From Lacinutrix sp. Bg11-31 (GTDB lineage Bacteria > Bacteroidota > Bacteroidia > Flavobacteriales > Flavobacteriaceae): a stretch of 64,000 nucleotides of DNA. Made by a program: the position numbers and the translations under genes. The stretch is taken from contig NZ_CP025118.1 of the NCBI RefSeq assembly GCF_002831665.1, positions 2,666,001 through 2,730,000 on the forward strand. Direction: 5' to 3'. The notes beneath the pieces were generated by a model. The model was not told the origin of the DNA, ran no database searches, and worked only from the letters and a program-made list of their open reading frames with translations. Shown here in pieces: positions 14,545 through 40,591 of the stretch (position 1 is its first letter; every line of letters starts with the position of its first letter).

Positions 14545-14576
14545 TTGTTTTCTACCATACTGAGTTGGTATTTTTG
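14545..14576 (+). promoter_or_regulatory. hemA promoter
   Basis: TTG at 14545-14547, a 21-base spacer and TATTTTTG at 14569-14576, an exact TAnnTTTG -7 box. It ends 12 bases before the ATG at 14589, so the leader is very short. The reading frame is open further upstream, but a start before this promoter would not be on the transcript, which decides the hemA start. Confidence 0.75.
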
Positions 14577-14588
14577 CTATCGAAGATT

Positions 14589-15848
14589 ATGAAACAATAT
14601 AACATTTCAAGAAGTACTACGTTTTACGCCATTGGCTTGAGCTACAAAAAAGCTGATGCCAAAATTCGTGGTAATTTTAGTTTAAGCGAAGAAGCGAAGT
14701 TAAACTTGCTAGATCAAGCAAAAACCAATGGTATTGAAAGCTTAATAGTGACTTCTACTTGTAATAGAACCGAAATTTTCGGTTTTGCAGAACACCCATT
14801 TCAACTTATTCAATTACTTTGTGACAACACAAAAGGAACCGTTGAAGAGTTTCAAAAAGTGGCTTATGTTTATAAAAATAAAGACGCTATTTCTCATATG
14901 TTTCGTGTTGGTTCTGGTTTAGATAGTCAAATTCTAGGTGATTTCGAGATTATTAGTCAATTAAAAACTGCCGCAAGAATTTCTAAAAAACACGATTTAC
15001 TTAATCATTTTATAGAGAGATTAGTAAATGCCGTTATTCAAGCAAGTAAGCGTATAAAAACAGAAACAGATATTTCATCTGGTGCAACATCTGTATCTTT
15101 TGCTTCTGTACAATACATAATGAAGCATGTTGAGAATGTTACAAACAAAAATATTCTACTTTTTGGAACCGGAAAAATAGGCAGAAATACTTGTGAGAAT
15201 CTAGTTAAACATACCAAAAATGAGCATATAACTTTAGTTAACAGAACTAAAGATAAAGCTGAAGCCATTGCAGGAAAATTTAATTTAATTGTAAAAGATT
15301 ACGCGAATCTTCAGGAAGAAATTAATGCTTCAGATATTTTAATTGTTGCAACAGGAGCTCAAAATCCTACAATCGACAAACATATTATTCAGTCTAAAAA
15401 AGAATTGTTGATCTTAGATTTATCAATTCCGAAGAATGTAAACGAAAACGTTCAAGAATTAAGTAACGTTAAACTTATACATTTAGATGATTTATCGCAA
15501 ATTACCGATGAAACATTAGAAAACAGAAAACAACATATTCCATTAGCCGAAACTATTATTCAAGAAGTAAATACTGAATTTAATAGCTGGTTAGAAACTA
15601 GAAAATTCGCACCTACAATAAAAGCGTTAAAAACAAAATTACAATCGTTTAAAACAGCTGAATTAGATACACAACGTAAAAAAATCGCAAATTTTAACGA
15701 AGAACAAGCTGAGTTAATTAGTAATAAACTCATTCAAAAAATAACAAATCACTTCGCTCATCATTTAAAAGACGAAGCAATTTCTACAAACGATAGCCTG
15801 GAACTTATTCAAAAAGTGTTTCAGTTAGAACCAATAAAAAATGTCTAG
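14589..15848 (+). CDS. hemA: Glutamyl-tRNA reductase
   Basis: A 419-residue enzyme that reduces glutamyl-tRNA(Glu) to glutamate-1-semialdehyde, the committed step of C5-pathway tetrapyrrole synthesis. The catalytic Cys58 is in T-S-T-C-N-R-T-E, followed by G-S-G-L-D-S-Q-I-L-G-D and the NADPH-fold motif L-L-F-G-T-G-K-I-G-R-N; the C-terminal dimerisation helices are complete. The frame is open from 14475, but the extra 38 residues are not family-like and span the promoter, so ATG 14589 is chosen. It overlaps hemCD by eight bases, so translation is coupled. Confidence 0.96.
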   Translation: MKQYNISRSTTFYAIGLSYKKADAKIRGNFSLSEEAKLNLLDQAKTNGIESLIVTSTCNRTEIFGFAEHPFQLIQLLCDNTKGTVEEFQKVAYVYKNKDAISHMFRVGSGLDSQILGDFEIISQLKTAARISKKHDLLNHFIERLVNAVIQASKRIKTETDISSGATSVSFASVQYIMKHVENVTNKNILLFGTGKIGRNTCENLVKHTKNEHITLVNRTKDKAEAIAGKFNLIVKDYANLQEEINASDILIVATGAQNPTIDKHIIQSKKELLILDLSIPKNVNENVQELSNVKLIHLDDLSQITDETLENRKQHIPLAETIIQEVNTEFNSWLETRKFAPTIKALKTKLQSFKTAELDTQRKKIANFNEEQAELISNKLIQKITNHFAHHLKDEAISTNDSLELIQKVFQLEPIKNV

Positions 15849-17424
15849 AATAATAAGAATTGGAACTCGCGATAGTGAGTTAGCGCTTTATCAAGCCAGA
15901 GCTGTAAGACAACAATTAGTGCAACTAGGCCATAAAGCAGTACTTGTTCCTATAAAATCCACTGGTGATTTAGTTTTAGACAAGCCACTTTACGAGCTTG
16001 GTATTACTGGAATATTTACAAGAACTTTAGACATTGCTATGTTAAATGGTGACATTGATATTGCTGTACATTCTTTAAAAGATGTACCAACCGTTTTACC
16101 AAAAGGCATTGTACAAGCTGCTGTTATGAAACGTGGTAACGTGCGTGATACTATAGTTTTTAAAGGTACCGAAGAGTTTTTAGGTGGGCCTGAAGCAGTA
16201 ATTGCTACTAGTAGTTTACGTAGAAAAGCACAATGGCTTAATCGCTACCCAACACATACTATCGTAGATATTCGCGGAAATGTAAATACACGTTTAGAAA
16301 AATTAGACACTAGTGAGGATTGGGATGCTGCTATTTTTGCTGCAGCTGGACTTGGACGTTTAGATGTACGACCAGAAACAGCAGATAATTTAGAATGGAT
16401 GGTTCCTGCTCCTGGACAAGGTGCAATTATGACAACTGCTCTAGAAGAAGACGAAGAGCTTTTAGTAATTTTAGCTGAAATTAATGATGAAGAGACAGAA
16501 ATTTGCACGCAAATAGAACGCGAATTTTTAAACCGATTAGAAGGTGGTTGTACTGCTCCTATTGGTGCTTTGTGTTATATAAAAGATGAAGAAGTAAACT
16601 TCGAAGGTATTTTATTAAGCCCAAATGGAACTAAAAAAATTACCGTAGAACGTGTAAAAGCGCTTGGAGAACATAGAGATATTGCAGAGTGGTGTGCAAA
16701 CTACGTAATAGACAAAGGTGGCAAACGCTTAATGGATGCTATGAAGCAAACTAGCAAACCAACAAATGTTTACTCTACTAAATCTTTTACAGAAGATCAA
16801 CGTTTGTTGTTTCATGAAAAAGTGAATCCTGATAGTAGTGATTTTGTAAAAATCAACTTAAATAGAATTGCACCAAGATTCTTAAAAAGCGAAATTGAAA
16901 ACGTAGTAATAACAAGTAAAAATGCTGTTGAAGCATTGCTTACTAATTTTTCTGCAATAGAGCTACAATTTAAAAACATCTACTGTGTTGGTCGTCGTAC
17001 AAAACGCATGATAGAGAGAAGAATTGGCGAAGTAAAACATAGCGAAAACAATGCTAAAAAATTAGCAGAACACTTAATTGAGTTTATGGATGGTAGTGAG
17101 ATTACATATTTTTGTAGCGATTTAAGATTAGACGATTTACCAACTGTTCTTAAAGAAAACAACATAGACGTTAAAGAAATTGAAGCTTACCAAACAAAAT
17201 TAGACAGCATTAAGGTTGATAGTTCTGTAGAAGGTCTTATGTTTTATAGTCCATCAACAGTAAAAAGTTATAAGCAAGAAAACAACGCTGAAGACAAAAC
17301 CATTGCTTTTTGCATTGGAGAATCGACAGCAAAGGAAGCTAGTAAGTATTTTAAAGATATTAGAATTGCAAAAGTACCAACTGTAGAAAGTGTTATTGAG
17401 TTGGTTAATGAGCATTATGTTTAG
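15841..17424 (+). CDS. hemC: Hydroxymethylbilane synthase / uroporphyrinogen-III synthase fusion
   Basis: A 527-residue fusion of two consecutive haem enzymes. Residues 1 to ~305 are HemC: I-R-I-G-T-R-D-S-E-L-A at the N-terminus, the H-S-L-K-D-V-P-T loop, and the dipyrromethane-binding cysteine in L-E-G-G-C-T-A-P-I-G near residue 237. Residues ~310-527 fit HemD by size and fold pattern, with S-K-N-A-V-E-A-L and F-Y-S-P-S-T-V-K-S as the usual weakly conserved motifs. HemC makes hydroxymethylbilane and HemD closes it to uroporphyrinogen III, so fusion would pass the unstable intermediate directly. It overlaps hemA by eight bases, and a tRNA-Ser gene follows 24 bases after the stop. Confidence 0.94.
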   Translation: MSRIIRIGTRDSELALYQARAVRQQLVQLGHKAVLVPIKSTGDLVLDKPLYELGITGIFTRTLDIAMLNGDIDIAVHSLKDVPTVLPKGIVQAAVMKRGNVRDTIVFKGTEEFLGGPEAVIATSSLRRKAQWLNRYPTHTIVDIRGNVNTRLEKLDTSEDWDAAIFAAAGLGRLDVRPETADNLEWMVPAPGQGAIMTTALEEDEELLVILAEINDEETEICTQIEREFLNRLEGGCTAPIGALCYIKDEEVNFEGILLSPNGTKKITVERVKALGEHRDIAEWCANYVIDKGGKRLMDAMKQTSKPTNVYSTKSFTEDQRLLFHEKVNPDSSDFVKINLNRIAPRFLKSEIENVVITSKNAVEALLTNFSAIELQFKNIYCVGRRTKRMIERRIGEVKHSENNAKKLAEHLIEFMDGSEITYFCSDLRLDDLPTVLKENNIDVKEIEAYQTKLDSIKVDSSVEGLMFYSPSTVKSYKQENNAEDKTIAFCIGESTAKEASKYFKDIRIAKVPTVESVIELVNEHYV

Positions 17425-27858: not shown

Positions 27859-28203
27859 TTAATTTAGAATAAGAGTGTAGTCTATATCATCTAACGCTAA
27901 AAAGACATTCTTTTTATTACAAAAAAGTGACTTTAACTCTTCTATTTCCTGCCTATTAAACATTAAAACCAGATTAGGTTGTAAAGATGGTATTGGTATT
28001 TTACGTTTAACTTTCGAGTGTGCGTATTTTGTTTCCCAATAGTTGGTTTCTATATTTAAAAGGTAGTTTTTAAATTTCTCATACTGCTCTACATTAAACT
28101 CAAAACATATATTATTAAACTCTAAATGGTATATTTTGCAGTTTTCACATATTGATAATTCGCCACTACTAACTTTTGATATTGTCTTTACATTATGGCA
28201 CAT
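27859..28203 (-). CDS. DUF6686-like small cysteine protein
   Basis: A 114-residue soluble protein with M-C-H-N at the start and C-E-N-C-K-I-Y-H at residues 19-26, giving a C-x-x-C and two histidines that could hold a metal. The rest is F-E-F-N-V-E-Q-Y-x-K-F (a helix) and a second C-terminal unit with a similar hydrophobic pattern. I match it to the DUF6686 family of Bacteroidota, whose function is unknown. It begins 16 bases after the PepSY fusion stop, so it is the last gene of the haem/iron operon. A metal-sensing or trafficking role is a guess from the cysteines. Confidence 0.75.
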   Translation of the reverse strand: MCHNVKTISKVSSGELSICENCKIYHLEFNNICFEFNVEQYEKFKNYLLNIETNYWETKYAHSKVKRKIPIPSLQPNLVLMFNRQEIEELKSLFCNKKNVFLALDDIDYTLILN

Positions 28204-28219
28204 AAATTTGTGTTTTAGA

Positions 28220-30409
28220 TTAGTAACAATCTGTTTTTATTTGGTTTCTTTCTATAAACTTGCTTAACGGAAGGTTTAAGTTTTCTGTTGTAATGGTATT
28301 TAGGGTAGCCAATACATCGTTTTGCATGGCTAACGATCCGCAAAGCATAATCACACCTTTATTTTTTAAGGTTTCTGCAATAAACAAAGCGTCTTGATTT
28401 AAGACGTCTTGCACGTAAGTTTTAGGTTCTTCTCTAGAAAACGCTAACTTTAATTTGGTAAGATTTTTACTATTATAATTTTCTTTAATAGCATCGCGAT
28501 ATAAGTTAAATGAAGCATTTTGCCTTAAACCATAATAAAAATGTGTTTCTGTGTTTTTCGTGTTTTGGTCTATCATTCCTAAAAAGGGAGCGATACCAGT
28601 TCCGTTGGCAATTAAGATTACTTTTGAGGCTTTTTTAGGAAAATGAAACGCCTTATTTTTAATAATTCGTGCTTTAAAATGAGCACCTATTTCTAATGTA
28701 TTTAAAAAGCCTGAGCCTAATCCGTTATCGTGAAGCTTTACACTTAATTGAACATTACCATTTACTTTACCAATGGAATACAAACGCTCTCTATAATCAT
28801 TTTTTGGATAGATGGCGAGCAAATCTCCAGAAGTAAATGTATTGGTATTCGGTTTTAAGGTGATTAAAAAGGTGCTATCTGGATGGTCTTCTGCTATGGT
28901 TTTATCTACAACCGTAAATGTGTTGTTTAATCTAGGTTTTATGGCCAGTTTTTCTTTTGAAATTGTAATTTGAAGCTCACGTTTCTTATTCCAAAGGTTT
29001 ATCCATTCTTGAAACGATTCTACCGATTTATCGTTAATTGTAAAAACAGGTAATTCTTGCTTAAACTGAAGCTTCATTTCGGCATCAACATCGAAAGCAA
29101 ATTTGCAAAAATCGGGATAAGCTAATGATCCAAAACCAACAACCGAATAACTTATTTCTTGCTCTTGTTTTATAGACTTTAAGCGCTGTAAAAATGCACT
29201 TGCGTTTGTTGGCGCTTCACCTTCACCATAAGTAGAAGTCATTATTATAAAATGCTCTGCTTTACTAAATGTGTTATAATTATTAAGCTCTGCGATGTAA
29301 GCTATTTCTCCCGCTTTTATTAATTGTTGTTGCAATTGGTTTGCAAAAGGCATGGTGTTTCCGTTTTCCGAACCTACTAAAATCACATACTTGCAAGCGT
29401 CCTTTTTATACTTGTTTTTTAGTTTAGATTTCCTTCGTTTTAGCGTCATTGCAAAACCAGAATAGATAAAAAACAGAATATTTGCGGTTGCAATTGCTAA
29501 AATAAGAGACCATAAAATACTACCTTTTCCTGTGTGTAAATTGAGACTTAATGTAGAAAAAACGGTTACTAATGGTGTTTCTATTTCGCTTAAAACAGCT
29601 CCATTAAATTGATTGACTACTATTTCTCTGTCTTTAAGTGAAATGGTAAAATAGTCTTCGACATCATTAGAAAAAGGAAACTCAATACTTTTTACTTCGG
29701 AAAGCTTTGTGCTTTTAAAAACTGGAAACGCTTTAATATCTATTTTTGGTGTTTCCGATAAGGTTTCAAAATCTATTTGATGGGAGCTTGTGTTTTTTGG
29801 AAGGACATCGAATTTTTCTAACGATAAATAAACACCTGTAATAGTAATGATAATAATTGGAATTAAAGACAAACGTCCTAAAACCACATGCCAATATTGA
29901 TTAAAATTCTCGTTAACTATTTTAGAGAAAAACTTTTTAAAACCACCTTGTCTTTTTAATATTAATACCGTTCCTGAAACTGCAATTAAAAATAATAGGA
30001 ACGAACATAAACCAACAAAAAAACGACCAATACTCTTTAAAAATAGCGATCTATGAAAATTAGTAACCCAATTAAAAAACTTGGACACTTCTATTTTGTC
30101 TCCTAGAAACTGTCCTGTTCTCGGGTTTATATAACCATTTAAACTTTCGCCATCGTTAGTAATTACTGAGGCTAAAACAAACTGATTTGCATCAATTTGA
30201 AGATCTAAAACTTCGGGATATTCTGTTTTTAAATTCGAAAGTGTTTCGGCAAGTGTTATACTTTCAAAATCTGAAACCTTATACGGTTCCATTTGTTCCG
30301 AGATTGGCTGAAAAGCCAAGATGATTCCAGTTATAGAAGCTAATAAAATAAAGACAAAAGAAGATACAGCTAGTGTAAGATGGCTGTATCTCCAAATTGA
30401 AATGGTCAT
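28220..30409 (-). CDS. PepSY membrane domain-flavodoxin-NAD(P)H reductase fusion
   Basis: A 729-residue single-chain transmembrane electron carrier. Residues 1-330: PepSY-associated domain with four membrane helices (about 9-32, 131-150, 172-195, 298-322), including H-W/H-V-V-L-G-type histidines that could bind haem. Residues ~340-485: flavodoxin domain (V-G-S-E-N-G-N-T phosphate loop; S-T-Y-G-E-G-E-A-P). Residues ~500-729: ferredoxin-reductase-type FAD/NAD(P)H module (R-L-Y-S-I-G; A-N-G-T-G-I-A-P-F-L-G). Electrons would pass from NAD(P)H through FAD and FMN to the periplasmic face, probably to reduce ferric chelates, haem or the adjacent flavinylated DUF2271 protein. Downstream in the iron operon. 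Confidence 0.92.
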   Translation of the reverse strand: MTISIWRYSHLTLAVSSFVFILLASITGIILAFQPISEQMEPYKVSDFESITLAETLSNLKTEYPEVLDLQIDANQFVLASVITNDGESLNGYINPRTGQFLGDKIEVSKFFNWVTNFHRSLFLKSIGRFFVGLCSFLLFLIAVSGTVLILKRQGGFKKFFSKIVNENFNQYWHVVLGRLSLIPIIIITITGVYLSLEKFDVLPKNTSSHQIDFETLSETPKIDIKAFPVFKSTKLSEVKSIEFPFSNDVEDYFTISLKDREIVVNQFNGAVLSEIETPLVTVFSTLSLNLHTGKGSILWSLILAIATANILFFIYSGFAMTLKRRKSKLKNKYKKDACKYVILVGSENGNTMPFANQLQQQLIKAGEIAYIAELNNYNTFSKAEHFIIMTSTYGEGEAPTNASAFLQRLKSIKQEQEISYSVVGFGSLAYPDFCKFAFDVDAEMKLQFKQELPVFTINDKSVESFQEWINLWNKKRELQITISKEKLAIKPRLNNTFTVVDKTIAEDHPDSTFLITLKPNTNTFTSGDLLAIYPKNDYRERLYSIGKVNGNVQLSVKLHDNGLGSGFLNTLEIGAHFKARIIKNKAFHFPKKASKVILIANGTGIAPFLGMIDQNTKNTETHFYYGLRQNASFNLYRDAIKENYNSKNLTKLKLAFSREEPKTYVQDVLNQDALFIAETLKNKGVIMLCGSLAMQNDVLATLNTITTENLNLPLSKFIERNQIKTDCY

Positions 30410-30460
30410 ATTTTTTTATTTTGAAACTTCTCGCAGATCACTTGAAGTAACATGATAGAA

Positions 30461-30946
30461 TTAATTAGGCATTAAACGTACATAACGAATAAAACCAGAA
30501 CCTTCTTTTTTGCTTTTAACACTTTCTGATGTTAATGGAAATTCCACATCCTTTGTGTAATATTCTTGATCTTCTACAGCAGTTTCAAAACGAATACTAT
30601 AACCAGCATCAATTTTAGAATCTTCAATATCTATTACACTAATACTTCTTGCACCTCCTGCAATTGTAGCTCCTGTAATAGCATCAATTTTTGTTCGTTT
30701 TTTACCGTAGAATTTCCACCATTCTGAAATGTCATGATACCACTCTTCATCATCACCTTGTACGCATAATGTTTTTTCGTATTCGCCTTCAGGATTAATA
30801 AGTGAAATAACGACGTAGGCGCTTTCACCAGAATAATTAATCATTTGAATCATACATTTATACGATGTCGATTCTGTTACTGTTGTAAATGATAGCGTTG
30901 AAATTGCTAAAACTCCAAGTACTAAAAGTGTTTTTAATGTTTTCAT
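30461..30946 (-). CDS. DUF2271 periplasmic protein with flavinylation motif
   Basis: A 161-residue exported protein (signal peptide to about residue 22). The mature domain matches DUF2271, with the W-Y-H-D-I-S-E-W-W-K-F-Y block at 69-80. Residues 88-94 read D-A-I-T-G-A-T, matching the D-x-x-[ST]-G-A-T sequence on which ApbE attaches FMN to threonine, with Thr94 as the acceptor. It lies between the ankyrin protein and the PepSY reductase fusion, the natural electron donor. I infer a periplasmic covalent-flavin electron carrier. No apbE is in this window, so the transferase must be encoded elsewhere. Confidence 0.85.
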   Translation of the reverse strand: MKTLKTLLVLGVLAISTLSFTTVTESTSYKCMIQMINYSGESAYVVISLINPEGEYEKTLCVQGDDEEWYHDISEWWKFYGKKRTKIDAITGATIAGGARSISVIDIEDSKIDAGYSIRFETAVEDQEYYTKDVEFPLTSESVKSKKEGSGFIRYVRLMPN

Positions 30947-30956
30947 TAATTACTTT

Positions 30957-32435
30957 TTATTTTAAAAAATCTAAATCAGTTTTCTGTGCTTTTAAAATTT
31001 CGTTTTCAGAAGCTAAATCGTAAGGTGTCTCTCCAAAATCTGTTGTAGTTTCTTTTTTAGCTCCAATAGAAATTAAATACTTTAAGATTTCTGTGTTTTT
31101 TGCTTGCAGAGCGGCAAGGTGTAAAGCTGTGTTTCCTTCTTTATTTTTAGCATTTACATCTATATTAAATTGCTTGATAAGCTTTAAAATACTGCTGTTG
31201 TTTTTTGGTAAAGCTAAATGGTATAAGGTATTTCCGTTTTCTTGTGTTTTAGTGATATCTAGTCCGTTTTTAGTTAAAACATCTAATTTTTGCTTAAAAA
31301 TAGCTTCTTTTTTAGTTGAAAACGATGCTATTAAATAAGCAGTTAAATTATTTTTATTAGCATCTAAAACCGAAACATCTGCTTTATTCTCAATTAAAAA
31401 ACGAACAACTTCTGGTGAGTTATTTGCAACAGCTAAAGCTAGTGCAGACTCTCCTTTTTTATTAACCTGATTTATATTTTTTAAATCCTTAGATAATAGT
31501 TCAACTGTCTCTGTAGTATTTCTACTAGCAGCGTTTATAAAAGGTGTGTTTCCGTTGTTATCTATTGCATTTACATCTAATCCTTTATCAACTAAATAGC
31601 TAATAAGTTCTAAATCTTTACTTCTAGACGCTAAGATATGTAGTGGCGTTTCTCCTTTTACTGAAGCTTTATTAGGATTTAAATCTACACTTTCTAAATA
31701 CTCATAAAAATCTAGTGTGTTTCTTTTACCTCTTGTTCCATAGGCTGCAAAAACAAAAGCATTATCTGTACCTTTTACTCCTTTTTCTATTAGCTTATTT
31801 AACAACTCTATATTACCTGTTTTGGCAACATAATTAAATATGCCATTACCATCTCTATCTACGCTATTAATATCTACTCCTTTTGAAGTAAAATAGCTAA
31901 TTAGTTTAAAACCTTTATCGTAAGGCGCAGCAAGTAATAACGCATTAGCACCATTTGGTGTTAAATCCGTTTTCACATTAGCGCCATTTGCAATACAAAG
32001 ATCGTAGACTTTTGTGTTTTGTTGCCCTGAACCTGCAGCGAAATTTAAGATTGTACTTCCTTTATCGTCGGTAATATCAGTTTTAGCTCCTTTGTTTAAA
32101 AGGTATTCCATAAAAGCAATATTACCTTTATAGGCTGCCCAGAAAATATAGGTTCTACCATCGTGCGTTAACTTATTGACATCGTTTCCTTTTTTAGATT
32201 GAATGTGCTTTAAGGTTTCTAATGGTGCATCTTGTAAAATAGCATATACAACCGCATCAAAATTATTGCTATTGGCTTCTGCTATATTATTACCTTCTTT
32301 TATTTTAGCTTCTACAGTTTTAACTTTTGGATTTGCATTCCAAAAATCCCTATCTAAAAACACATTCTCTTGTGCAAAACTTAGTATGCTTATAAAGCAT
32401 ATAATAATTGTTACTATTTTTTTTAAATACTTCAT
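30957..32435 (-). CDS. Periplasmic ankyrin-repeat protein
   Basis: A 492-residue exported protein: signal peptide ending I-L-S-F-A-Q at residue 22, then about twelve ankyrin repeats of ~33 residues covering nearly the whole chain (typical units G-N-T-A-L-H-L-A-A and G-E-S-A-L-A-L-A). Ankyrin proteins are interaction scaffolds; a secreted one in an iron locus probably binds another envelope protein. It begins one base after the DUF6607 stop and ends ten bases before the DUF2271 start, so it is firmly part of the operon. Its partner is unknown. Confidence 0.9.
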   Translation of the reverse strand: MKYLKKIVTIIICFISILSFAQENVFLDRDFWNANPKVKTVEAKIKEGNNIAEANSNNFDAVVYAILQDAPLETLKHIQSKKGNDVNKLTHDGRTYIFWAAYKGNIAFMEYLLNKGAKTDITDDKGSTILNFAAGSGQQNTKVYDLCIANGANVKTDLTPNGANALLLAAPYDKGFKLISYFTSKGVDINSVDRDGNGIFNYVAKTGNIELLNKLIEKGVKGTDNAFVFAAYGTRGKRNTLDFYEYLESVDLNPNKASVKGETPLHILASRSKDLELISYLVDKGLDVNAIDNNGNTPFINAASRNTTETVELLSKDLKNINQVNKKGESALALAVANNSPEVVRFLIENKADVSVLDANKNNLTAYLIASFSTKKEAIFKQKLDVLTKNGLDITKTQENGNTLYHLALPKNNSSILKLIKQFNIDVNAKNKEGNTALHLAALQAKNTEILKYLISIGAKKETTTDFGETPYDLASENEILKAQKTDLDFLK

Positions 32436-32436
32436 T

Positions 32437-33345
32437 TTATTTTTTTACAAATGATTCAATTAATGGATTAATTTCTTCTGATGTTTTATACTTTTCTTTA
32501 TCGAATAAATACTTAAACAACACTTTATTATCTACTTTTTCTTCTAAGGTTAAATCTTTATTTCTAGCAAAAACTTCATCCCATTTTGTGCGTACTAAAA
32601 CCCATTTACCTTCATTATTTTTCCAATAATCTTGTGCAGCGACACATTCGCTATCCTCTACTTTAACATAAGTATTATGGCCTTTTTCTTGTGCTAAAAC
32701 AACATCCTCTTTTACATCATCACGAATAACTTTGTCGTTATCTTGATCATGAATCCAACCGTTAGCAACAATTTCGTGACGGTTAGTTCTAAGTGTTACA
32801 TTATAATCGCTACGTTTTGTGTACTCACGTCTTGGTAAAGGTGCAGCAGTTGTGCTTTCCCAATAACTTTTCCCGTCTACATGAACCCAAGTAGCAGAAC
32901 CTTCGTAACGCGGACTATCGTCTACCTGAAATACTTTTTGCGTCCACTGTCCTTTTACTTCTTTTATAGGAAGACTAACAAACGTCCATTTATTATCGTG
33001 ATCAAACTCGTATAAATTGGTGTTTTCAAACTCCCAATCTTGTCTCCAATGTTTTACTATGTATGGTTTTTCTTTAGAGCCAACAATTAATAAATGCTGC
33101 AATGCAATTTTATTTCTATCGTCTTCAACTAACTGAACCCATTCTAAACCTTTATCGGTTTTTGTTTTAGAAGGCACATAAGTAGAGTCTTTAGAATACT
33201 CAAAAGTTTCAGCAAAATTGAAGCTTACTTCATAACAACCACACATGTCTTTTATGGCTTTTTGATCTTGTTTTTTCTTGTTTTGAGCATTTCCACTAAA
33301 CGGTATTGATAGAATAATTACTGCTAATACTACTAAATGTTTCAT
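32437..33345 (-). CDS. DUF6607-like secreted protein
   Basis: A 302-residue protein with a clear signal peptide (to about residue 20, ending G-N-A-Q). The mature chain starts with a C-G-C-Y-E-V-S-F-N-F motif (residues ~35-44) and is rich in W and charged residues (K-H-W-R-Q-D-W-E-F; W-T-Q-K-V-F-Q-V). I match it to DUF6607, a Bacteroidota family of unknown function. First gene of the operon that runs through the ankyrin, DUF2271 and PepSY genes. The C-G-C pair could bind metal or form a disulfide. Confidence 0.8.
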   Translation of the reverse strand: MKHLVVLAVIILSIPFSGNAQNKKKQDQKAIKDMCGCYEVSFNFAETFEYSKDSTYVPSKTKTDKGLEWVQLVEDDRNKIALQHLLIVGSKEKPYIVKHWRQDWEFENTNLYEFDHDNKWTFVSLPIKEVKGQWTQKVFQVDDSPRYEGSATWVHVDGKSYWESTTAAPLPRREYTKRSDYNVTLRTNRHEIVANGWIHDQDNDKVIRDDVKEDVVLAQEKGHNTYVKVEDSECVAAQDYWKNNEGKWVLVRTKWDEVFARNKDLTLEEKVDNKVLFKYLFDKEKYKTSEEINPLIESFVKK

Positions 33346-33397
33346 TATTAAGTTGTTTGATTATGATATTAAAAAAAATATTAAAAATTTGTTATTC

Positions 33398-33420
33398 TTA
33401 TTTAGATTGAATTAAAATAA
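33398..33420. promoter_or_regulatory. Fur-like palindrome, site 1
   Basis: An 11-1-11 palindrome centred on G33409 (TTATTTAGATT-G-AATTAAAATAA) with 9 of 11 pairs matching. It covers the TTG element of the receptor promoter and lies 53 bases before the start of the divergent DUF6607 gene, so one bound repressor could block both operons. The form resembles Fur-family boxes, but the identity of the binding protein is inferred. Confidence 0.6.
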
Positions 33421-33432
33421 GATATATATTTG
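33407..33432 (+). promoter_or_regulatory. TonB receptor promoter
   Basis: TATATTTG at 33425-33432 is an exact TAnnTTTG -7 box, 18 bases before the ATG. A TTG lies at 33407-33409, giving a 15-base spacer, slightly short. The element overlaps Fur-like site 1. Confidence 0.55.
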
Positions 33433-33441
33433 CGACAAATA

Positions 33442-33464
33442 TAAAATAGAATGATTCTAAATAA
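33442..33464. promoter_or_regulatory. Fur-like palindrome, site 2
   Basis: A palindrome centred on G33453 with a perfect 6-1-6 core TAGAAT-G-ATTCTA; 8 of 11 pairs match over the longer form. It covers the start codon at 33451 and is 44 bases (four helical turns) from site 1. Binding here would block elongation or help a second Fur dimer at site 1. Confidence 0.55.
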
Positions 33465-35580
33465 AAATAAAATCACCATTTATTTTTCACTTTTTTTAAG
33501 CTGCATTTCTTTTGCTCAAATAAAAAAAGACTCCGTAAAAACGCAATCTCTTGAAGAAGTTGTAATTACAGGACAATACAATGCGCAGTCTATAAAAAAG
33601 TCTATTCATAATGTTACTGTAATTAATAGAAAGCAAATTGAAAGTCAGGCGGCTAATAATTTAGCCGATTTATTAAATTTTAATCTAAATCTTACCGTTA
33701 CACCTAATGCGCAATCTGGAAAATCGACTGTTTCATTTTTTGGATTAGACTCTCAATACTTTAATGTTTTAATAGATAACATTCCATTGGTGAGTGATAA
33801 TGGTCTAGGAAACAATATCGATTTAACGCAAATAAATCTTGACGACATTGAGCGTATAGAAATCGTGGAAGGTGCTATGGGAGTTGAATATGGTGCAAAT
33901 GCTGTTTCTGGTGTTATTAATATAATTACAAAGAAAACCATTAGTAGCGATTGGAAAATTCAAGCTTTTGTACAAGAAGAAACCGTTAGCGATGAATACG
34001 AATGGTTTGATGAAGGAAGACACATACAGTCTCTTAGTATTGGACATAATATAAACGAAAAACTGTTTGCTAGAGTTGGTTTTAATATAAATCAATTTGC
34101 AGGATTCTATAATGGCAGACAAGGACAAAACCACTATATAAACGATAGTTTACGCGGTCATGATTGGTTACCTAAAACTCAATTTAACACCAATGCTTTA
34201 CTAAGTTATAATACTAACAAATTTAAGCTAGTATACAAATCGGAATATTTTAATGAGATAATTAATAACTACGGTGTTACCGTTAGAGCTAATATTGATA
34301 CCGATAACCAAACAAGTAATCCAACGTCAACCGATAAAATTTTTACAACAAACAGGTTTGTAAACAATTTAAATTTAAGCGGAAGTTTAAATTCTGGTGC
34401 AAATTATAATGCTTCATTTTCTTATCAAACTCAGAAAAGAGATTTAAACGAGTTTACTTACTACATACTTACTAAAGATAAAACCGATGAAATTGATGAA
34501 ACCTACCAATCGAGTCATGTATTTTATTCTAAAGGAGATATAAATAATCTTGTTAAAAGTGATTTTTTCAACTTTCAGTTAGGCTACGAAACTCGTTTTA
34601 TAAAAGGTTTCGATACGCAAGCTTCGGGAGATATTACACAAAAAGATAAAACTAGAAAGCAAAATAATGTTGCGTTGTTTGGTTCTTCAGAATTAAAACT
34701 GACTAATAAATTTTCGATAAGACCTGGTGTACGTTATGAGTATAATTCCTTATTCGATTCTAAATTATTAGCTTCATTAAGCACACGCTATTTAATGCCT
34801 AAAGGTTTCGAGTTACGCGCCAACGTTGGTACTTCTTACAGAACACCAAATTTTGAAGAGTTATACTACTACTTTGTCGATTCTAACCACGATGTACAAG
34901 GAAATGAAAACTTAAATCCTGAAAAAGGATATTCGGCATTTTTAACCTTAAAAAAGAGAAGTTGGTTTAAGGATACTTCTTTACAAAACACAATAAAACT
35001 TAGCTATATAGACTTAAAAGATAAAATAGATCTTGCTATTGTAAACACTGCACCTTTACAATACGAGTACATAAATATTGATACTTATAAGCTTTGGGGA
35101 ATTACACAAGAGAACAGTATAAAAAAAGATAACTGGACTTTAAATCTAGGTGGAACATTACAAGGTATTTCTAGAGTTGCAAGTAATGAAGTTAATATAG
35201 ATAATGACTTTTTATATTCTTACCAATTAAACACAAGTGCTACTTATAATGTTAAAAAATGGAAAACTGCTTTCACGTTGCTATTAAAGCATAATGGGAA
35301 GCAAAAGGGCTATGTCTCTAGTGGAACAGATGGTAATGGCAATTCTGTATTCGAAAAAACCACAACCGATGCTTATAGCTGGTTAGATGGTTCCATAAAA
35401 AAATCTTTTTTAAACAATAAAATTCAAGCAACAATTGGCGGCCGAAACCTACTAGATGTTACTAATGTAAATGTTAGTAATAATTCTACAAACGGTGTGC
35501 ATTCCTCTAGTAATAGTGCATTACTATTGGGTTACGGACGTTCTTATTACTTAAAACTATTATATAATTTAAACTTTTAA
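33451..35580 (+). CDS. TonB-dependent outer-membrane receptor
   Basis: A 709-residue outer-membrane transporter. Signal peptide to about residue 23 (C-I-S-F-A-Q); TonB box region L-E-E-V-V-I-T near 34; plug domain with V-I-N-R-K-Q-I-E-S-Q-A-A-N-N-L-A-D-L-L and I-E-R-I-E-I-V-E-G; then a long beta barrel ending Y-L-K-L-L-Y-N-L-N-F with a terminal aromatic. The absence of a SusC-type N-terminal domain and the HmuY partner suggest haem or siderophore uptake. It precedes the HmuY lipoprotein by eleven bases and is controlled by the Fur-like sites. Confidence 0.94.
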   Translation: MILNKNKITIYFSLFLSCISFAQIKKDSVKTQSLEEVVITGQYNAQSIKKSIHNVTVINRKQIESQAANNLADLLNFNLNLTVTPNAQSGKSTVSFFGLDSQYFNVLIDNIPLVSDNGLGNNIDLTQINLDDIERIEIVEGAMGVEYGANAVSGVINIITKKTISSDWKIQAFVQEETVSDEYEWFDEGRHIQSLSIGHNINEKLFARVGFNINQFAGFYNGRQGQNHYINDSLRGHDWLPKTQFNTNALLSYNTNKFKLVYKSEYFNEIINNYGVTVRANIDTDNQTSNPTSTDKIFTTNRFVNNLNLSGSLNSGANYNASFSYQTQKRDLNEFTYYILTKDKTDEIDETYQSSHVFYSKGDINNLVKSDFFNFQLGYETRFIKGFDTQASGDITQKDKTRKQNNVALFGSSELKLTNKFSIRPGVRYEYNSLFDSKLLASLSTRYLMPKGFELRANVGTSYRTPNFEELYYYFVDSNHDVQGNENLNPEKGYSAFLTLKKRSWFKDTSLQNTIKLSYIDLKDKIDLAIVNTAPLQYEYINIDTYKLWGITQENSIKKDNWTLNLGGTLQGISRVASNEVNIDNDFLYSYQLNTSATYNVKKWKTAFTLLLKHNGKQKGYVSSGTDGNGNSVFEKTTTDAYSWLDGSIKKSFLNNKIQATIGGRNLLDVTNVNVSNNSTNGVHSSSNSALLLGYGRSYYLKLLYNLNF

Positions 35581-35591
35581 AACCAATTACA

Positions 35592-36677
35592 ATGATTAAC
35601 AAATTTTTTACCTCAATTTTATGCGCCTCGGTATTACTGTTCTCAAGCTGCAGTAGCGATGACGACTCAACACCTACACAACCAATACAAGTTGTAATAG
35701 AAGGTGCTGCCATATCTCCATTAGTTGGAGGTCCAAACGAACAAAATCAAGTTTATGTAGACTTAAGTACAAACACAAGTACAGCTGTACAGCGTGATTC
35801 TTGGGATTTAGGTTTTTATTCTGAATCAGAATTTAGAGTAGCTATAAATGGATCTATTTATATGGCAACTGCTGAATTAACGGTTTCAGATATAGATGCT
35901 GTGAATTCGTCTAATGCAGAAGTGCAAGACTTACAAACAAGAGTTGCTGTTGGTACTTTTCAAGCTGAAACTGCTGGATTTATAGATGCTCCAACTGGTG
36001 AAATTAGCGGAACTGCTATTTCTGCTATTTCTGAAACTGATGTAGAAAACCATGTCTATTTAGTAAACTTAGGCTTTGAGGTTGGAACAGCAACGCCTTC
36101 TAACGGAAGTGTTGAAGTTTCTGGTGCTGCTAGAGGTTGGAAAAAAATTAGAATTTTAAAAGACGGAAACAATTACGTTTTACAATATGCTGATTTGGAT
36201 GCTACAACTCATGAAGTAGTTACTATTGCTAAAAATGCAGATTATAATTATACATTCTTTAGCTTTAATACTGAAACAGAGGTTAGTGTAGAACCAGTTA
36301 AAACAAACTGGGATTTAAACTTTAGTGTTTTTACAAATGAAATATCAGGTTATGGTGCTTATGGTTATTCAGATTTTGTAGTTAATAATACAAAAGCAAG
36401 CGCAACTGTTTACATGATAGATACAGATACTGAAGCTTTAGCTTATGACGATTTTACGTTAGCAGATGTTGAAAACACAAACTTCTCAAACGACCAACGT
36501 GCAATTGGAAGCAGCTGGAGAAATGGTGGTGGACCAGGAACATTACCTTCTTTAAAAGAAAACGTGTTTTACATAGTAAATGATACCGATGGTAATTTAT
36601 ATAAGCTTAAATTTTTAGCTTTAACAGATGCTTCCGGAGAACGTGGTTACCCAGAATTTGTTTATAGTTTATTATAA
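35592..36677 (+). CDS. HmuY-family haem-binding lipoprotein
   Basis: A 361-residue lipoprotein: lipobox L-L-F-S-S-C with Cys at residue 20, followed by an acidic S-S-D-D-D-S tether typical of surface export. The body fits the HmuY family: S-W-D-L-G-F-Y-S near 76-83 and a repeat of W-D-L-N-F-S later, a paired beta layout seen in HmuY. HmuY of Porphyromonas is a secreted haemophore that hands haem to the TonB receptor HmuR. The sequence lacks an obvious counterpart of the two ligand histidines by eye, so haem binding needs testing. Co-transcribed with the receptor. Confidence 0.85.
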   Translation: MINKFFTSILCASVLLFSSCSSDDDSTPTQPIQVVIEGAAISPLVGGPNEQNQVYVDLSTNTSTAVQRDSWDLGFYSESEFRVAINGSIYMATAELTVSDIDAVNSSNAEVQDLQTRVAVGTFQAETAGFIDAPTGEISGTAISAISETDVENHVYLVNLGFEVGTATPSNGSVEVSGAARGWKKIRILKDGNNYVLQYADLDATTHEVVTIAKNADYNYTFFSFNTETEVSVEPVKTNWDLNFSVFTNEISGYGAYGYSDFVVNNTKASATVYMIDTDTEALAYDDFTLADVENTNFSNDQRAIGSSWRNGGGPGTLPSLKENVFYIVNDTDGNLYKLKFLALTDASGERGYPEFVYSLL

Positions 36678-36742: not shown

Positions 36743-37369
36743 TTAATCTAAGTGATAAATCTCACGAATGCTTTCCAGAATGTTTTCAAAATCTATTTTT
36801 AGATCTATCAATTTTCCTGTATGAATATCGAAAACCCAACCATGTACTGCTAAACCTCTTCCACGAGCTGCTTTTTGAACTGCAGCTGTTTTAATTAGGT
36901 TAACACATTGCTCTTGTACATTTAATTCTACTAGGCGCTCGTACTTTTTTTCTTCATCTTCTATTGCATTTAGCTCTGTATTGTGTATTCGGTACACATC
37001 GCGAATATTACGTAACCAAGGATTTAGTATTCCTAAATCTGCAGATTGCATTGCTGCTTTAACTCCACCACAACCATAATGGCCACAAACAACAACATGG
37101 TTTACTTTTAAATGTGATACTGCATATTCTACTACAGACATTGCATTTAAATCTGTACCAATAACCATATTTGCAATGTTACGGTGTACAAAAACATCTC
37201 CAGGTCCTAATCCCATTAATTCCTCGGCAGTTACTCTACTGTCTGAGCAACCTATAAATAAAAGCTCTGGATTTTGTCCTTCTCCTAATTTATCGAAATA
37301 TTTATCGTCTTCGTTTAGCTTAGCCTTAATCCACTCTTTATTGTTTTCAAAAACGTTATCTAGCTTCAT
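36743..37369 (-). CDS. Beta-carbonic anhydrase
   Basis: A 208-residue beta-class carbonic anhydrase interconverting CO2 and bicarbonate. Zinc ligands are visible: Cys in I-G-C-S-D-S-R (about residue 41), His and Cys in G-H-Y-G-C-G-G-V-K (about 97-100), with the Asp-Arg dyad of C-S-D-S-R. No signal peptide, so cytosolic. It is the last gene of the SulP run, twelve bases after the SulP transporter stop, and probably equilibrates imported bicarbonate. Confidence 0.95.
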   Translation of the reverse strand: MKLDNVFENNKEWIKAKLNEDDKYFDKLGEGQNPELLFIGCSDSRVTAEELMGLGPGDVFVHRNIANMVIGTDLNAMSVVEYAVSHLKVNHVVVCGHYGCGGVKAAMQSADLGILNPWLRNIRDVYRIHNTELNAIEDEEKKYERLVELNVQEQCVNLIKTAAVQKAARGRGLAVHGWVFDIHTGKLIDLKIDFENILESIREIYHLD

Positions 37370-37381
37370 AATTTTAAGTTT

Positions 37382-39244
37382 TTAATGTTTGTCTTCTACG
37401 TTATCTTTAACCCATTTTAAACAGGCTTTAAAATTACTAAAAATACGATCATTCGGTATAAAATCTGGAATTATATCAATACGTTCCATCATATATCGTG
37501 GTTGTTGTAAAAGTCCAACAAAAACGACATCGATATCTTTCTTTTTTAAATCTAAAAGCATGTCTTCCATAGCATACAAACCAGATTGATCCATATATTG
37601 CATACGTCCTAATCTTAAAATAACAAATCTTGCTGTATCAGGAATTTGCAATGTTAATGCTTGAAAATCACTAGTCGACCCAAAGAATAATGGTCCTTTT
37701 AAATGTTTAATAAACACCTCTTCTTTTAATTGTTGTGGGAAATTTGTCTCGTCTTCCCATGTTTCTTCTTTTAATGATTTTACATCTGAACGTTCTGCTG
37801 TTAAATCACCAATTTTCTTCATAAACATTAAAGAAGCAATTACAAGACCAATACCAACTGCATAAATTAAATCCCAGAAAGTAGATAGTAATAATACGAT
37901 GATCATTATTAATACTTCTGAACTTAATTTTAAAGGTCCTATTTTAATATCTCTTGGTAAACTTGGTATAGCTTTAAGTCCTTTATAATCCATAACACCA
38001 ATACCAACAGTTATTAAAATACCTGCTAAAACTGCTGCTGGAATTTTAGATGCTACAGGTCCTAATGCCAACATAACTACTAATAACATAATGCCTGCAA
38101 TCATTCCTGAAAGCTTTGTTTTTCCTCCTGCATTAATATTTACAACGGTTCTTATAGTTGCTCCTGCACCAGGAATACCTCCAAAAATCGCTGCAATACT
38201 GTTACCAATTCCTTGACCAATTAATTCTTTGTTAGGTTTGTGTTTTGTTTTAGTCATATTATCTGCAACAACACTTGTTAATAAAGAATCTATTGCCCCT
38301 AATAAAGATAATGTAAGAGCAGTAAAAATATATGGAGTAATACTACCCATACTGAAGGAAGTAAACATTTCTAATTTTGGAATTGGAATACCTCCTGGAA
38401 TCTCAGAAATTGGTCTATAGCCCAAACTAAAGCCATAAGCTATTCCAGACATAACAACTAGAGCAACCAAAGTACTTGGTATTGCTGTTGTAATACGTTT
38501 AAAACCATAAATAATTAATATCGTTCCTAGGGCCAACATTAGTTCTAACCAATTAATGTTTTTTAAGGCTCTTGGTAATACTCTCAACGCTCCAATTGTA
38601 CCAGAAGCTTCTTTTGCCGCTAATGTTTGAGATTCGTTTAAAATCTCTTCTGGTGTAATTAAATCTGCTCGTGTTATTGTTTCTTTAAAGTTTTCTAAAA
38701 CTAAAATACCTTGACCAGCTTCATCTTTAAGTATATTCTCAAGGATAACTTCTTCGGCTTGTGGTTTAAATTGTTCAACAAACTCCATATCTTCTTTTGG
38801 GTAATAACCAATAGAAGGTAAAACTTGTGTAAGTAATATTATAACTCCAATTGCAGTCATGAAACCAGAAACAACAGGATATGGTATGTATCTAATATAT
38901 TTACCTAGACCTAAAAAACCAAGTCCTACTTGTATTAATCCTGCTAATAAAAAGACTGTTAATATTGCAGGTAATGCTTTGTCTATACTACCATCGTTTG
39001 CCGCAACAATACCAGCAATTATAACCATACTTACCGCTGTCATTGGAGCAGTAGGTCCAGATATTTGTGTTGGTGTGCCGCCAAAAAGAGCAGCAAAGAA
39101 ACTAATAAATATAGCACCATAAAGCCCTGCTTCTGGTCCTAAACCTGAAGACACTCCAAATGCCAATGCTAATGGTAGTGCTACAATTCCTGCTGTGATA
39201 CCTCCAAAGGCATCTCCTTTAAAATTGGAAAAAAAGTTTTTCAT
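37382..39244 (-). CDS. SulP-family anion (bicarbonate) transporter
   Basis: A 620-residue SulP transporter with about 12-14 membrane helices (residues 1-470) and a C-terminal STAS domain (about 505-620). Family motifs include G-G-I-T-A-G-I-V-A-L-P-L-A-L-A-F-G at the N-terminus and G-G-I-P-G-A-G-A-T-I-R-T-V-V-N-I in the core. SulP proteins move sulfate or bicarbonate; two carbonic anhydrases in the same run favour bicarbonate, as in BicA. An insertion of ~60 residues after helix 5 (about residues 150-215) makes it longer than its paralogue upstream. Substrate is inferred. Confidence 0.92.
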   Translation of the reverse strand: MKNFFSNFKGDAFGGITAGIVALPLALAFGVSSGLGPEAGLYGAIFISFFAALFGGTPTQISGPTAPMTAVSMVIIAGIVAANDGSIDKALPAILTVFLLAGLIQVGLGFLGLGKYIRYIPYPVVSGFMTAIGVIILLTQVLPSIGYYPKEDMEFVEQFKPQAEEVILENILKDEAGQGILVLENFKETITRADLITPEEILNESQTLAAKEASGTIGALRVLPRALKNINWLELMLALGTILIIYGFKRITTAIPSTLVALVVMSGIAYGFSLGYRPISEIPGGIPIPKLEMFTSFSMGSITPYIFTALTLSLLGAIDSLLTSVVADNMTKTKHKPNKELIGQGIGNSIAAIFGGIPGAGATIRTVVNINAGGKTKLSGMIAGIMLLVVMLALGPVASKIPAAVLAGILITVGIGVMDYKGLKAIPSLPRDIKIGPLKLSSEVLIMIIVLLLSTFWDLIYAVGIGLVIASLMFMKKIGDLTAERSDVKSLKEETWEDETNFPQQLKEEVFIKHLKGPLFFGSTSDFQALTLQIPDTARFVILRLGRMQYMDQSGLYAMEDMLLDLKKKDIDVVFVGLLQQPRYMMERIDIIPDFIPNDRIFSNFKACLKWVKDNVEDKH

Positions 39245-39279
39245 TTATCTTGTTTTATTTCTTGTATTGTTGGTATTTC

Positions 39280-39942
39280 TTAAAAGTTAAAGAATGTAAT
39301 AACATTTAATTGATCTCTGTTACTCGTTTCAAAAAACTGATTCATATAACCAATCTCTATTTTTAATGATTTATTAAACTTGTAACCTAAACCTCCATAC
39401 ATTCTATTTCTATCGAAAACAGAAGATTCTGTATTTAAAAAAATCTCATTATAGGCTGAAAGATAATACTTGTTATCTTCTTTTCCGGTTAACGGGATAT
39501 TAAAACCTAAAAAATAACGAAAACGCATTTTAAAATCGGTTTCAACAAAACGTTGTTCGAAACGATAACGATGACTTAAAGCTACGCTACCAATTTTTTG
39601 CTTAGTTGTAAATTGCTGAAATATGCGGTGTTCGTTTACATCAATTTTCTCGTCTAATCCTTCTCTATAATTTTGAGATAGAATATAACCATATCCTAGC
39701 AAAATATTGTTATTGTTTTCTGATAAATTATAACCAATACCTGTTCTTAACAATAATTGTTCTAAATCGTCTATAGCATTATAGCTTCGATACTGCACTT
39801 CATTATGGATATTCCATTTACTATCAAGCTTCTTGTTCCCAATATATACTAGCCAATTCCCGAAATCACTTTCTTGTGCATGTATAAAATTAGGCAGCAC
39901 TAACAATAATGTTAGTGCTGCCATAGTTATTCTCTTTTTCAT
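39280..39942 (-). CDS. DUF2490 outer-membrane beta-barrel protein
   Basis: A 220-residue outer-membrane protein: signal peptide M-K-K-R-I-T-M-A-A-L then a hydrophobic core ending I-H-A-Q, and a barrel of alternating strands ending in N-V-I-T-F-F-N-F with the aromatic terminus typical of BamA substrates. It fits DUF2490, a family often beside SulP or carbonic-anhydrase genes. I chose ATG 39942; an upstream in-frame ATG at 39969 would overlap the carbonic anhydrase stop (ATGAATAG) and lengthen the n-region. It may form a pore for bicarbonate or other small anions; inference from context. A strong hairpin is buried in its first codons. Confidence 0.85.
   Translation of the reverse strand: MKKRITMAALTLLLVLPNFIHAQESDFGNWLVYIGNKKLDSKWNIHNEVQYRSYNAIDDLEQLLLRTGIGYNLSENNNNILLGYGYILSQNYREGLDEKIDVNEHRIFQQFTTKQKIGSVALSHRYRFEQRFVETDFKMRFRYFLGFNIPLTGKEDNKYYLSAYNEIFLNTESSVFDRNRMYGGLGYKFNKSLKIEIGYMNQFFETSNRDQLNVITFFNF
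39893..39922 (-). promoter_or_regulatory. Hairpin in the first codons of the DUF2490 gene
   Basis: A perfect 13-bp inverted repeat (39893-39905 and 39910-39922, GGCAGCACTAACA) around a four-base loop, covering codons 7-17 after the ATG at 39942. In mRNA this is a strong stem about 20 bases after the start codon. No T run follows, so it is not an intrinsic terminator. It could limit translation or mark an RNA-processing point. Confidence 0.45.
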
Positions 39943-39961
39943 TTTATTTTTAGATATTCTT

Positions 39962-40591
39962 CTATTCATAAAATTTTACTTCACCTGTATTTACATTGTA
40001 CATGGCTCCTATAATTTTAATTTCACCGGCTTTTTCCATCTCGGTAAGTATTGGGCTTTCTGCATGAATTCTATCTATCATTAATTCTACATTAATGTGC
40101 GATACTTCATCAACAAAATCTAAGTTTTTAGAAGTTCTTAAAGCTTCTTCTTTAGGTTCTAAAACAGCATTAACTGCTGGTGTTATTTTTTGAACTAACT
40201 TAGTTAAGTTACCCATTTCTGCATGGTCACAAGCTCCTTTTACAGCTCCACAACTAGTATGGCCCAAAACAACAATAAGTTCTGTACCTGCTAATTTGCA
40301 AGCAAATTCCATACTACCTAAAATGTCTTCGTTTACAATATTACCTGCAACACGTACACTAAAAATATCTCCTAAACCTTGATCGAACACCAACTCTGCT
40401 GAAACTCTAGAATCTATACAGCTTAAAATAGTAGCGAAAGGAAATTGCCCATCACTAGTATCGTTTACTTGCTCTAAAAGATTTCTATTGGCTTTTAAAT
40501 TGTTTTGAAATCTTTGGTTTCCTTCTTTTAAATATTGTAATGACTTTTCAGGTGTCATTGTCGATTGCGTTTCTTTTGTATGTGCTTTCAT
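39962..40591 (-). CDS. Beta-carbonic anhydrase
   Basis: A 209-residue beta-class enzyme distinct from the one at 36743. Zinc ligand regions are S-C-I-D-S-R (near residue 58), G-H-T-S-C-G-A-V-K (near 112-120). The N-terminal L-Q-Y-L-K-E-G-N-Q-R-F and the R-V-A-G-N-I-V block are characteristic of the branch often encoded next to SulP genes. No signal peptide, cytosolic. It is preceded by the stress-protein gene and followed by DUF2490; two carbonic anhydrases in one run suggests a real need for bicarbonate exchange. Confidence 0.94.
   Translation of the reverse strand: MKAHTKETQSTMTPEKSLQYLKEGNQRFQNNLKANRNLLEQVNDTSDGQFPFATILSCIDSRVSAELVFDQGLGDIFSVRVAGNIVNEDILGSMEFACKLAGTELIVVLGHTSCGAVKGACDHAEMGNLTKLVQKITPAVNAVLEPKEEALRTSKNLDFVDEVSHINVELMIDRIHAESPILTEMEKAGEIKIIGAMYNVNTGEVKFYE

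Follow-up and report, generated by a model that had tools for sequence, protein, structure and literature searches.

We analysed a seven-gene haem/iron locus of Lacinutrix sp. Bg11-31, which lies in a 64,000-nucleotide stretch of DNA (the window; 2,666,001-2,730,000 of the 3.665-Mb single-contig genome), and two kinds of described system come closest to it. In the PepSY-like flavinylation systems (PMC8238504; Meheust et al. 2021), a PepSY_TM membrane protein is clustered with DUF2271, a substrate of ApbE. An NAD-binding domain is found in 1077 cases, and the secreted protein DUF4198 is a frequent partner (1500 of 3220 clusters). The authors link these systems to iron reduction and to TonB receptors, and they report that DUF2271 of another species is flavinylated by its ApbE and that a Thr-to-Ala change abolished the flavinylation. 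The second system is RhuH-RhuR-RhuA of Riemerella anatipestifer (PMC11967795), in which a haemophore gene is divergent from the genes of a TonB receptor and an outer-membrane haem-binding protein. The Lacinutrix locus probably joins both in one place, a RhuH/RhuR/RhuA-type haem uptake module and a transmembrane electron chain, under the control of Fur. Its features are as follows.

27859..28203, minus strand: DUF6686 protein, 114 amino acids, last gene of the operon (Pfam PF20391, E 2.6e-46)
28220..30409, minus strand: PepFR, a PepSY_TM domain fused to a flavodoxin and an NAD-binding domain, 729 amino acids (Pfam; P450-reductase/CysJ-like matches)
30461..30946, minus strand: DUF2271 protein with a hydrophobic amino end (signal peptide) and a predicted ApbE site at Thr94 (Pfam PF10029, E 3.6e-41)
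30957..32435, minus strand: ankyrin-repeat protein, 492 amino acids, with a hydrophobic amino end (signal peptide), the steady partner of DUF2271 (Pfam Ank families)
32437..33345, minus strand: DUF6607 protein, encoded at the head of the operon and a member of the RhuH haemophore family; its His99 corresponds to the haem-ligand His96 of RhuH
33398-33420, no strand: conserved palindromic operator TTATTTAGATTGAATTAAAATAA, a probable Fur box, between the divergent transcripts in a 105-base promoter
33444-33462, no strand: second Fur-box-like site, 16/19 to the Riemerella consensus, overlapping the start codon of the TonB receptor gene
33451..35580, plus strand: TonB-dependent receptor in the position of RhuR (Pfam, NCBIfam and PDB sequence matches)
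35592..36677, plus strand: HmuY-fold lipoprotein in the position of RhuA, best viewed as a single HmuY fold with a long insertion

All seven genes named by an earlier reading of this DNA (the sequence-only reading) are open frames at these positions, and its domain assignments held: Pfam matches exceeded the curated cut-offs for DUF6686, for PepSY_TM, Flavodoxin_1 and NAD_binding_1, for DUF2271, the ankyrin repeats and DUF6607, and for the TonB-dependent receptor and HmuY. Five genes form a leftward run in the order DUF6607, ankyrin, DUF2271, PepSY-flavodoxin-NAD(P)H reductase and DUF6686, separated by 1, 10, 51 and 16 bases, and the genes of the TonB receptor and the HmuY-like protein run rightward on the opposite strand, divergent from this operon. 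A hydropathy scan gave the hydrophobic amino ends of the DUF2271 and ankyrin proteins; the signal peptides of DUF6607, the TonB receptor and the HmuY-like lipoprotein were read by eye and lie below the threshold of the scan.

Like the published PepSY-like flavinylation systems, the Lacinutrix genome has a PepSY_TM protein, an ApbE substrate with [ST]GA[ST] in the same cluster, ApbE encoded in the genome and conserved pairs of His. Unlike them, it has an ankyrin partner, an operon headed by a haemophore gene, and apbE genes that stand elsewhere (1.12 and 3.40 Mb); ApbE in the gene cluster is frequent but not required in the published clusters, and the window has none. Neither 'ankyrin' nor 'HmuY' occurs in the main text of PMC8238504. 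The iron-responsive predicted operon CCNA_03155-03159 of Caulobacter (PMC12004947) similarly contains a flavin-dependent reductase, a PepSY protein and DUF2271, but it has DUF4198 as a named member and no ankyrin protein. The periplasmic ferrisiderophore reductases FoxB and HiuB (PDB 7ABW; PMC13001220, PMC13038864) resemble the window in their PepSY_TM domain, the His pairs for two haems and an adjoining TonB receptor, and for HiuB, FeoAB has been proposed to act downstream. Unlike FoxB and HiuB, the reductase of the window is fused to a cytoplasmic diflavin part, which would be a built-in donor of electrons from reduced nicotinamide adenine dinucleotide (phosphate), NAD(P)H, and it is accompanied by a predicted flavinylated carrier.

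The other half of the locus shares with RhuH-RhuR-RhuA the divergent gene arrangement, the shared promoter with a Fur box (a predicted one here) and the conserved ligand His. Downstream of the haemophore gene, the window has the ankyrin, DUF2271 and PepSY reductase genes, an order that we give for the window alone, and the HmuY-like gene is likened to RhuA by position alone. Porphyromonas HmuYR (PMC10434189) also has a HmuY fold adjoining a TonB receptor, but the HmuY-like protein of the window has no conserved His pair, and no hmuS/CobN-like gene was recognised by eye among the open frames of 24-40 kb, where no model search was made. Both PepSY-like flavinylation and RhuH haem uptake are thus known kinds of system, and the type of chain itself is known. 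The literature searched did not mention an ankyrin partner, a link between such a partner and a RhuH-type locus, or a location of apbE that differs with the presence of Nqr. We take two of these to be the new parts: the ankyrin partner found across the phylum, and the association of the chain with haem uptake of the RhuH type.

The haemophore assignment comes from a full-length match of DUF6607 to the solved structure of RhuH (PDB 8XJC, E 3.2e-115), in which H99 aligns with the ligand His96 of RhuH and is invariant in 30 of 30 rows. DUF6607 is therefore a member of the RhuH haemophore family by homology, with haem binding predicted, and not the accessory part of an electron chain for which it had been taken.

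The reductase, which we call PepFR, was examined in relatives. GTDB genomes were scanned with a reductase alignment, and the best 80 of at least 562 relatives were retained as named loci, so the sample is biased to close relatives; the nearest is Lacinutrix algicola (L069), 94% identical across the reductase. PepFR consists of PepSY_TM (residues 10-325; PF03929, E 3.2e-35), flavodoxin (343-463) and NAD-binding (599-699) domains. Four hydrophobic segments were found at 13-31, 132-150, 175-193 and 297-315, and at or shortly before each of them stands one of four His residues, H10, H119, H174 and H292, each present in 81 of 81 alignment rows (79 loci and the window twice; L140, with a split frame, was excluded). 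These features fit a membrane wire with two predicted haem sites. Positive charges follow segments 2 and 4, suggesting a cytoplasmic location for both the amino end and the flavin domains. This would place H10/H174 on the inner side and H119/H292 on the outer side and give two haem sites, as described for FoxB (PMC13038864). The cytoplasmic half resembles P450 reductase (E 5.4e-21) and CysJ. Residues R542, Y544 and S545 of the R542-L-Y-S545 motif for flavin adenine dinucleotide (FAD), and G603, T604 and G605 (G603-T-G605), are invariant in 11 sequences. Although the Pfam search of PepFR listed no FAD-binding family, the parts for binding flavin mononucleotide (FMN), FAD and NAD(P)H that mark the P450-reductase/CysJ type are all present.

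DUF2271 contains the proposed attachment motif, D88-A89-I90-T91-G92-A93-T94, as had been claimed. The motif is conserved: 72 of the 78 DUF2271 proteins of the named loci carry [ST]GA[ST], and Ser or Thr occupies the acceptor place in 78/78 (the motif table gives 74 and 80 of 80 as the window stands in it twice; these counts leave the window out). Among near relatives, 18 of 19 proteins retain the motif, window included. The six proteins without the canonical motif have GET (L078, L089, L107 and L127), GPS (L097) or AGAT (L129). In the DAITGET copies of the first four loci, either ApbE tolerates Glu before the acceptor or the copies are not flavinylated. GET also replaces GAT in the one exception among the near relatives, L061 (9085-9576), where DUF2271 stands beside DUF6607 without ankyrin or reductase neighbours; that genome holds a second, complete module (L058), and the loss of the motif in L061 speaks for the chain.

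The ankyrin protein had been counted among the accessory parts, a view that its distribution does not support. The ankyrin, DUF2271 and reductase genes stand on one strand and in the same order in 77 of the 80 named loci, strictly neighbouring in 76, so that ankyrin (77/80) is nearly as constant as DUF2271 (78/80). The exceptions are L084, which lacks the ankyrin gene, L105, which lacks ankyrin and DUF2271, and L120, whose sequence begins 142 bases before the reductase. The named loci include Lacinutrix, Tenacibaculum, Winogradskyella, Flavobacterium, Pedobacter, Mucilaginibacter, Larkinella, Dyadobacter, Pontibacter and Niastella, genera that we take to represent four orders. In a second sample, an even draw of 148 Bacteroidota genomes with the window's own included, DUF2271 exceeded the cut-off in 9 (10 further weak matches fell below it), and a profile of 12 ankyrin orthologues (E <=1e-30) found the ankyrin family in the same 9 genomes, with the two genes adjacent in 9/9. 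The chance of this coincidence is 1.4e-14 if genomes are assumed to be independent, which they are not. DUF2271 is also present in 18 of 60 nearer genomes (own included), and the trio was found in 16 of 18 stretches from 17 DUF2271-bearing relatives, L054, cut by a contig end, being one of the 16. The tight coupling to DUF2271, together with the presence of DUF4198 and not ankyrin in the published clusters, suggests that the ankyrin protein is a docking or targeting partner of DUF2271. In L057, a 463-amino-acid protein of no known family (11800-13191) lies between an 804-amino-acid TonB receptor and the module and could be a partner that handles a different cargo; genes of similar size occupy this position in L058 and L060.

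The sequence-only reading had seen no apbE in the window. This was correct: the only two apbE matches of the genome, both over the cut-off, are at 1,122,331 and 3,397,988. One adjoins a thioredoxin-like gene and a gene for DUF3570, itself a reported ApbE substrate (PMC8238504), and the other is downstream of NqrB and genes that are nqr-like by size and order. We then surveyed 49 genomes hand-picked from the 80 loci, 46 of which have the full trio and 47 DUF2271. ApbE was found in 49 of these 49 reductase genomes. An NqrB match was absent in 25, and among these FMN_bind matched in 0/25 and DUF3570 in 11/25; of the other 14, all but L105 and L120 show the complete module, so DUF2271 is the only ApbE substrate among the tested families in those 12. 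ApbE stands no more than two genes from the reductase in 19 of the 80 named loci, and in the survey this was so in 17 of 25 Nqr-less genomes versus 1 of 24 Nqr-bearing ones (p = 3e-6; some loci are short-flanked). The draw of 148 genomes gave a similar picture. Six of its DUF2271 genomes lack NqrB, and in each of them an apbE match lies at a distance of 2.3 to 2.7 kb from the DUF2271 match, about the length of one reductase gene; among NqrB-less genomes apbE occurs in 6/6 with DUF2271 versus 46/96 without (p = 0.027, with five weak NqrB matches counted as absent). On these findings, the absence of apbE from the window is no argument against flavinylation. A possible answer to where ApbE comes from is that its gene lies elsewhere in the genome if nqr is present and mostly next door if nqr is absent.

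Several observations suggest that the locus responds to iron. Of 39 orthologous regions, the window's among them, 30 keep the core of TTATTTAGATTGAATTAAAATAA without a change, and a matrix built from those regions scored this site 22 bits above every other place in the window. Sites with no more than one mismatch to the operator occur at five places in the genome, in four loci: its own, a TonB receptor/PepSY_TM locus (two), an FMN_bind locus and feoA-feoB. The Riemerella Fur box has the consensus ATTTAGAATTATTCTAAAT (PMC5609570). Ahead of DUF6607, 42 of 45 loci (counting the window) have a match of at least 15/19 to it, versus 4.6% of first-order resamples; ahead of the ankyrin gene, 21 of the 33 loci that lack DUF6607 have one, versus 2.1%. 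The divergent receptor and the Fur box in a shared promoter, both characteristic of the RhuH family, were thus found at the level of predicted sites. In Riemerella, feoAB is reported to be Fur-controlled (PMC10434265), and the near-copy of the operator at feoAB fits Fe(II) as the product of the chain.

Other sites of this kind were noticed. The TonB receptor/PepSY_TM locus (L176; G000:C1:176000-186000) has tandem one-mismatch operators at 4784 and 4850, just upstream of the genes of an 808-amino-acid TonB receptor and a 380-amino-acid stand-alone PepSY_TM protein. In L177 (G000:C1:1717000-1727500), near-copies with two and one mismatches (5053 and 5124) precede a 386-amino-acid protein without a Pfam match; a 175-amino-acid FMN_bind protein (PF04205) is encoded farther on, possibly a second flavinylated system in the same regulon. 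Within the window, a Fur-box-like site at 14419 (16/19) lies in the region 13510-17424, between genes that by eye resemble an AraC-type regulator on one side and glutamyl-tRNA reductase (hemA) and hemC/hemD on the other, and hints at joint control of haem synthesis.

The genes and their order, the motif, the ligand residues, the apbE genes of the genome, the homology to a solved haemophore and the shared operator can be read from the DNA itself. From these we infer flavinylation in this genome, the membrane topology, the order of electron transfer, the role of the ankyrin protein and the final acceptor. The cytoplasmic diflavin reductase would accept hydride from NAD(P)H and pass electrons from FAD to FMN. 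They would then cross the membrane via two b-haems, held by H10/H174 on the cytoplasmic side and H119/H292 on the periplasmic side, and reduce the FMN that ApbE is predicted to attach to DUF2271 in the periplasm, at Thr94; the secreted ankyrin protein would be the partner of DUF2271 and help to dock or guide it. DUF2271-FMNH2 may in turn reduce a periplasmic ferric substrate. Ferric iron or one of its chelates is the likeliest, and ferric haem is a possibility; FeoAB would then import the Fe(II). The sequences strongly support a flow of electrons from NAD(P)H to a flavinylated DUF2271, which also agrees with published work on other species, and for this genome it is a prediction. The chain from NAD(P)H through FAD, FMN and the membrane to DUF2271-FMN had already been proposed in the sequence-only reading, and it withstood the two of that reading's refuting conditions that can be checked by computation, as apbE is in the genome and the motif is conserved; the four invariant His fit it as well. 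Covalent FMN and the delivery of electrons to ferric iron or haem keep the standing of predictions. Taken together, we consider it probable that this is a Fur-controlled haem/iron locus with a reductive arm, in which RhuH-type uptake is combined with an NAD(P)H-to-DUF2271-FMN chain that reduces a ferric substrate.

A number of results weigh against this conclusion. Of the 19 places of the Riemerella Fur consensus, the palindrome TTATTTAGATTGAATTAAAATAA matches only 14, and no evident iron gene was seen in L180-L183, the remaining loci with two-mismatch operators. The TonB receptor scored below the cut-off of each curated model for B12, haem and catecholate receptors, and in the HmuY-like lipoprotein, which did show the HmuY fold, no His or inner Met is invariant across 20 rows (Met91 is present in 13/20 of these wider rows and in 15/15 closer aligned loci). 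Haem as the cargo therefore rests on DUF6607; known members of the HmuY family do differ in their haem ligands (PMC12106395). Among 20 relatives with DUF6607, 6 have no part of the electron module beside it and 1 has DUF2271 only, so the haemophore can do without that module. The PepSY part of PepFR matches FoxB (7ABW) weakly in sequence (E 0.0021). No apbE adjoins the locus in this genome, the same holds for all 44 named loci that contain DUF6607, and ApbE is common generally (97 of 148 genomes). All six DUF2271 proteins with a noncanonical motif (of 78) sit in intact modules, and conversely TGAT persists in the DUF2271 of L045, which stands alone with neither an ankyrin nor a reductase gene next to it.

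The electron module could also be a general reductase of ferric iron or ferric chelates that feeds FeoAB, its proximity to haem genes reflecting common iron control and no contact with haem. We give this an even chance. It is compatible with most of the conclusion above and differs in the acceptor. Of the 77 loci with the module, 33 have no DUF6607 (Pedobacter, Mucilaginibacter and Larkinella are among them), 21 of the 33 have Fur-box-like sites, and such modules without a haemophore favour iron or its chelates as the acceptor. A module that follows a CarbopepD-type TonB receptor and the 463-amino-acid protein in L057, the one-mismatch operator copy before feoAB, and the description of FoxB-like PepSY proteins as ferrisiderophore reductases (PMC13038864, PMC13001220) point the same way. 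Yet in 40 of the 80 named loci the ankyrin gene comes immediately after the haemophore gene and on its strand, and in 4 more a single gene separates the two, an adjacency tighter than common regulation would need. The single apparent operon of haemophore gene and electron module, in the window and in those 40 loci, instead suggests that electrons might pass to ferric haem on RhuH or the HmuY-like lipoprotein and ease the release or transfer of haem. We regard this as unlikely, given the 33 of 77 loci that have the module with no haemophore gene nearby, the ability of RhuH homologues to extract haem from haemoglobin in vitro without the module (PMC11967795), and the predicted periplasmic location of DUF2271, as RhuH was found in outer membrane vesicles (PMC11967795).

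That DUF2271 is not flavinylated here, and that the membrane reductase acts on its substrate directly as FoxB does, would agree with the lack of a local apbE and with the 6 of 78 orthologues without the canonical motif. It seems very unlikely in view of the Ser or Thr at every acceptor place (78/78), the presence of apbE in 49/49 genomes and within two genes in 19/80 loci, and the flavinylation of DUF2271 of another species at the same motif (PMC8238504); in this genome DUF2271 is thus predicted to be flavinylated. Least likely of all is that the module serves another metal or redox task, such as the reduction of copper for haem-copper oxidases proposed for CrpH, a PepSY_TM protein that works in copper supply (PMC13038864); the Fur-box-like operator and the RhuH-family partner indicate iron.

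The last gene of the operon is loosely linked to the rest. DUF6686 had been counted among the accessory electron parts, but it directly follows the reductase in only 9 of the 80 named loci and in 9 of the 18 stretches of nearer relatives with DUF2271. Its C19 and C22 are conserved (12 aligned rows, window counted twice), and no signal peptide was seen in this protein. Beside the locus, at 36743-40591, two carbonic-anhydrase-like genes surround genes for a SulP-like transporter and an outer-membrane-like protein, and relatives of the carbonic anhydrase and transporter genes adjoin the locus in several relatives too (all names by eye).

Beyond the probable reductive arm, we can envisage a reductive haem-iron route in Bacteroidota. 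In it, the secreted ankyrin protein would hold flavinylated DUF2271 in a position from which cytoplasmic NAD(P)H could supply electrons to ferric haem, or to the iron within it, in the envelope; this iron would then be taken up as Fe(II) via FeoAB and not as intact haem. This idea is speculative and quite unlikely to hold in full. If it were true, this would be, judging from the literature searched, the first ankyrin protein of the envelope recognised to accompany a flavinylated electron carrier so regularly. The locus supplies a parts list for a flavin-based electron route to the periplasm of Bacteroidota, in which ankyrin is nearly as constant as the flavin carrier; many Flavobacteriaceae link this route to a haemophore family of solved structure. 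What was a vague cluster of unknown domains may in this way become a subject for direct knock-out and in-vitro tests.

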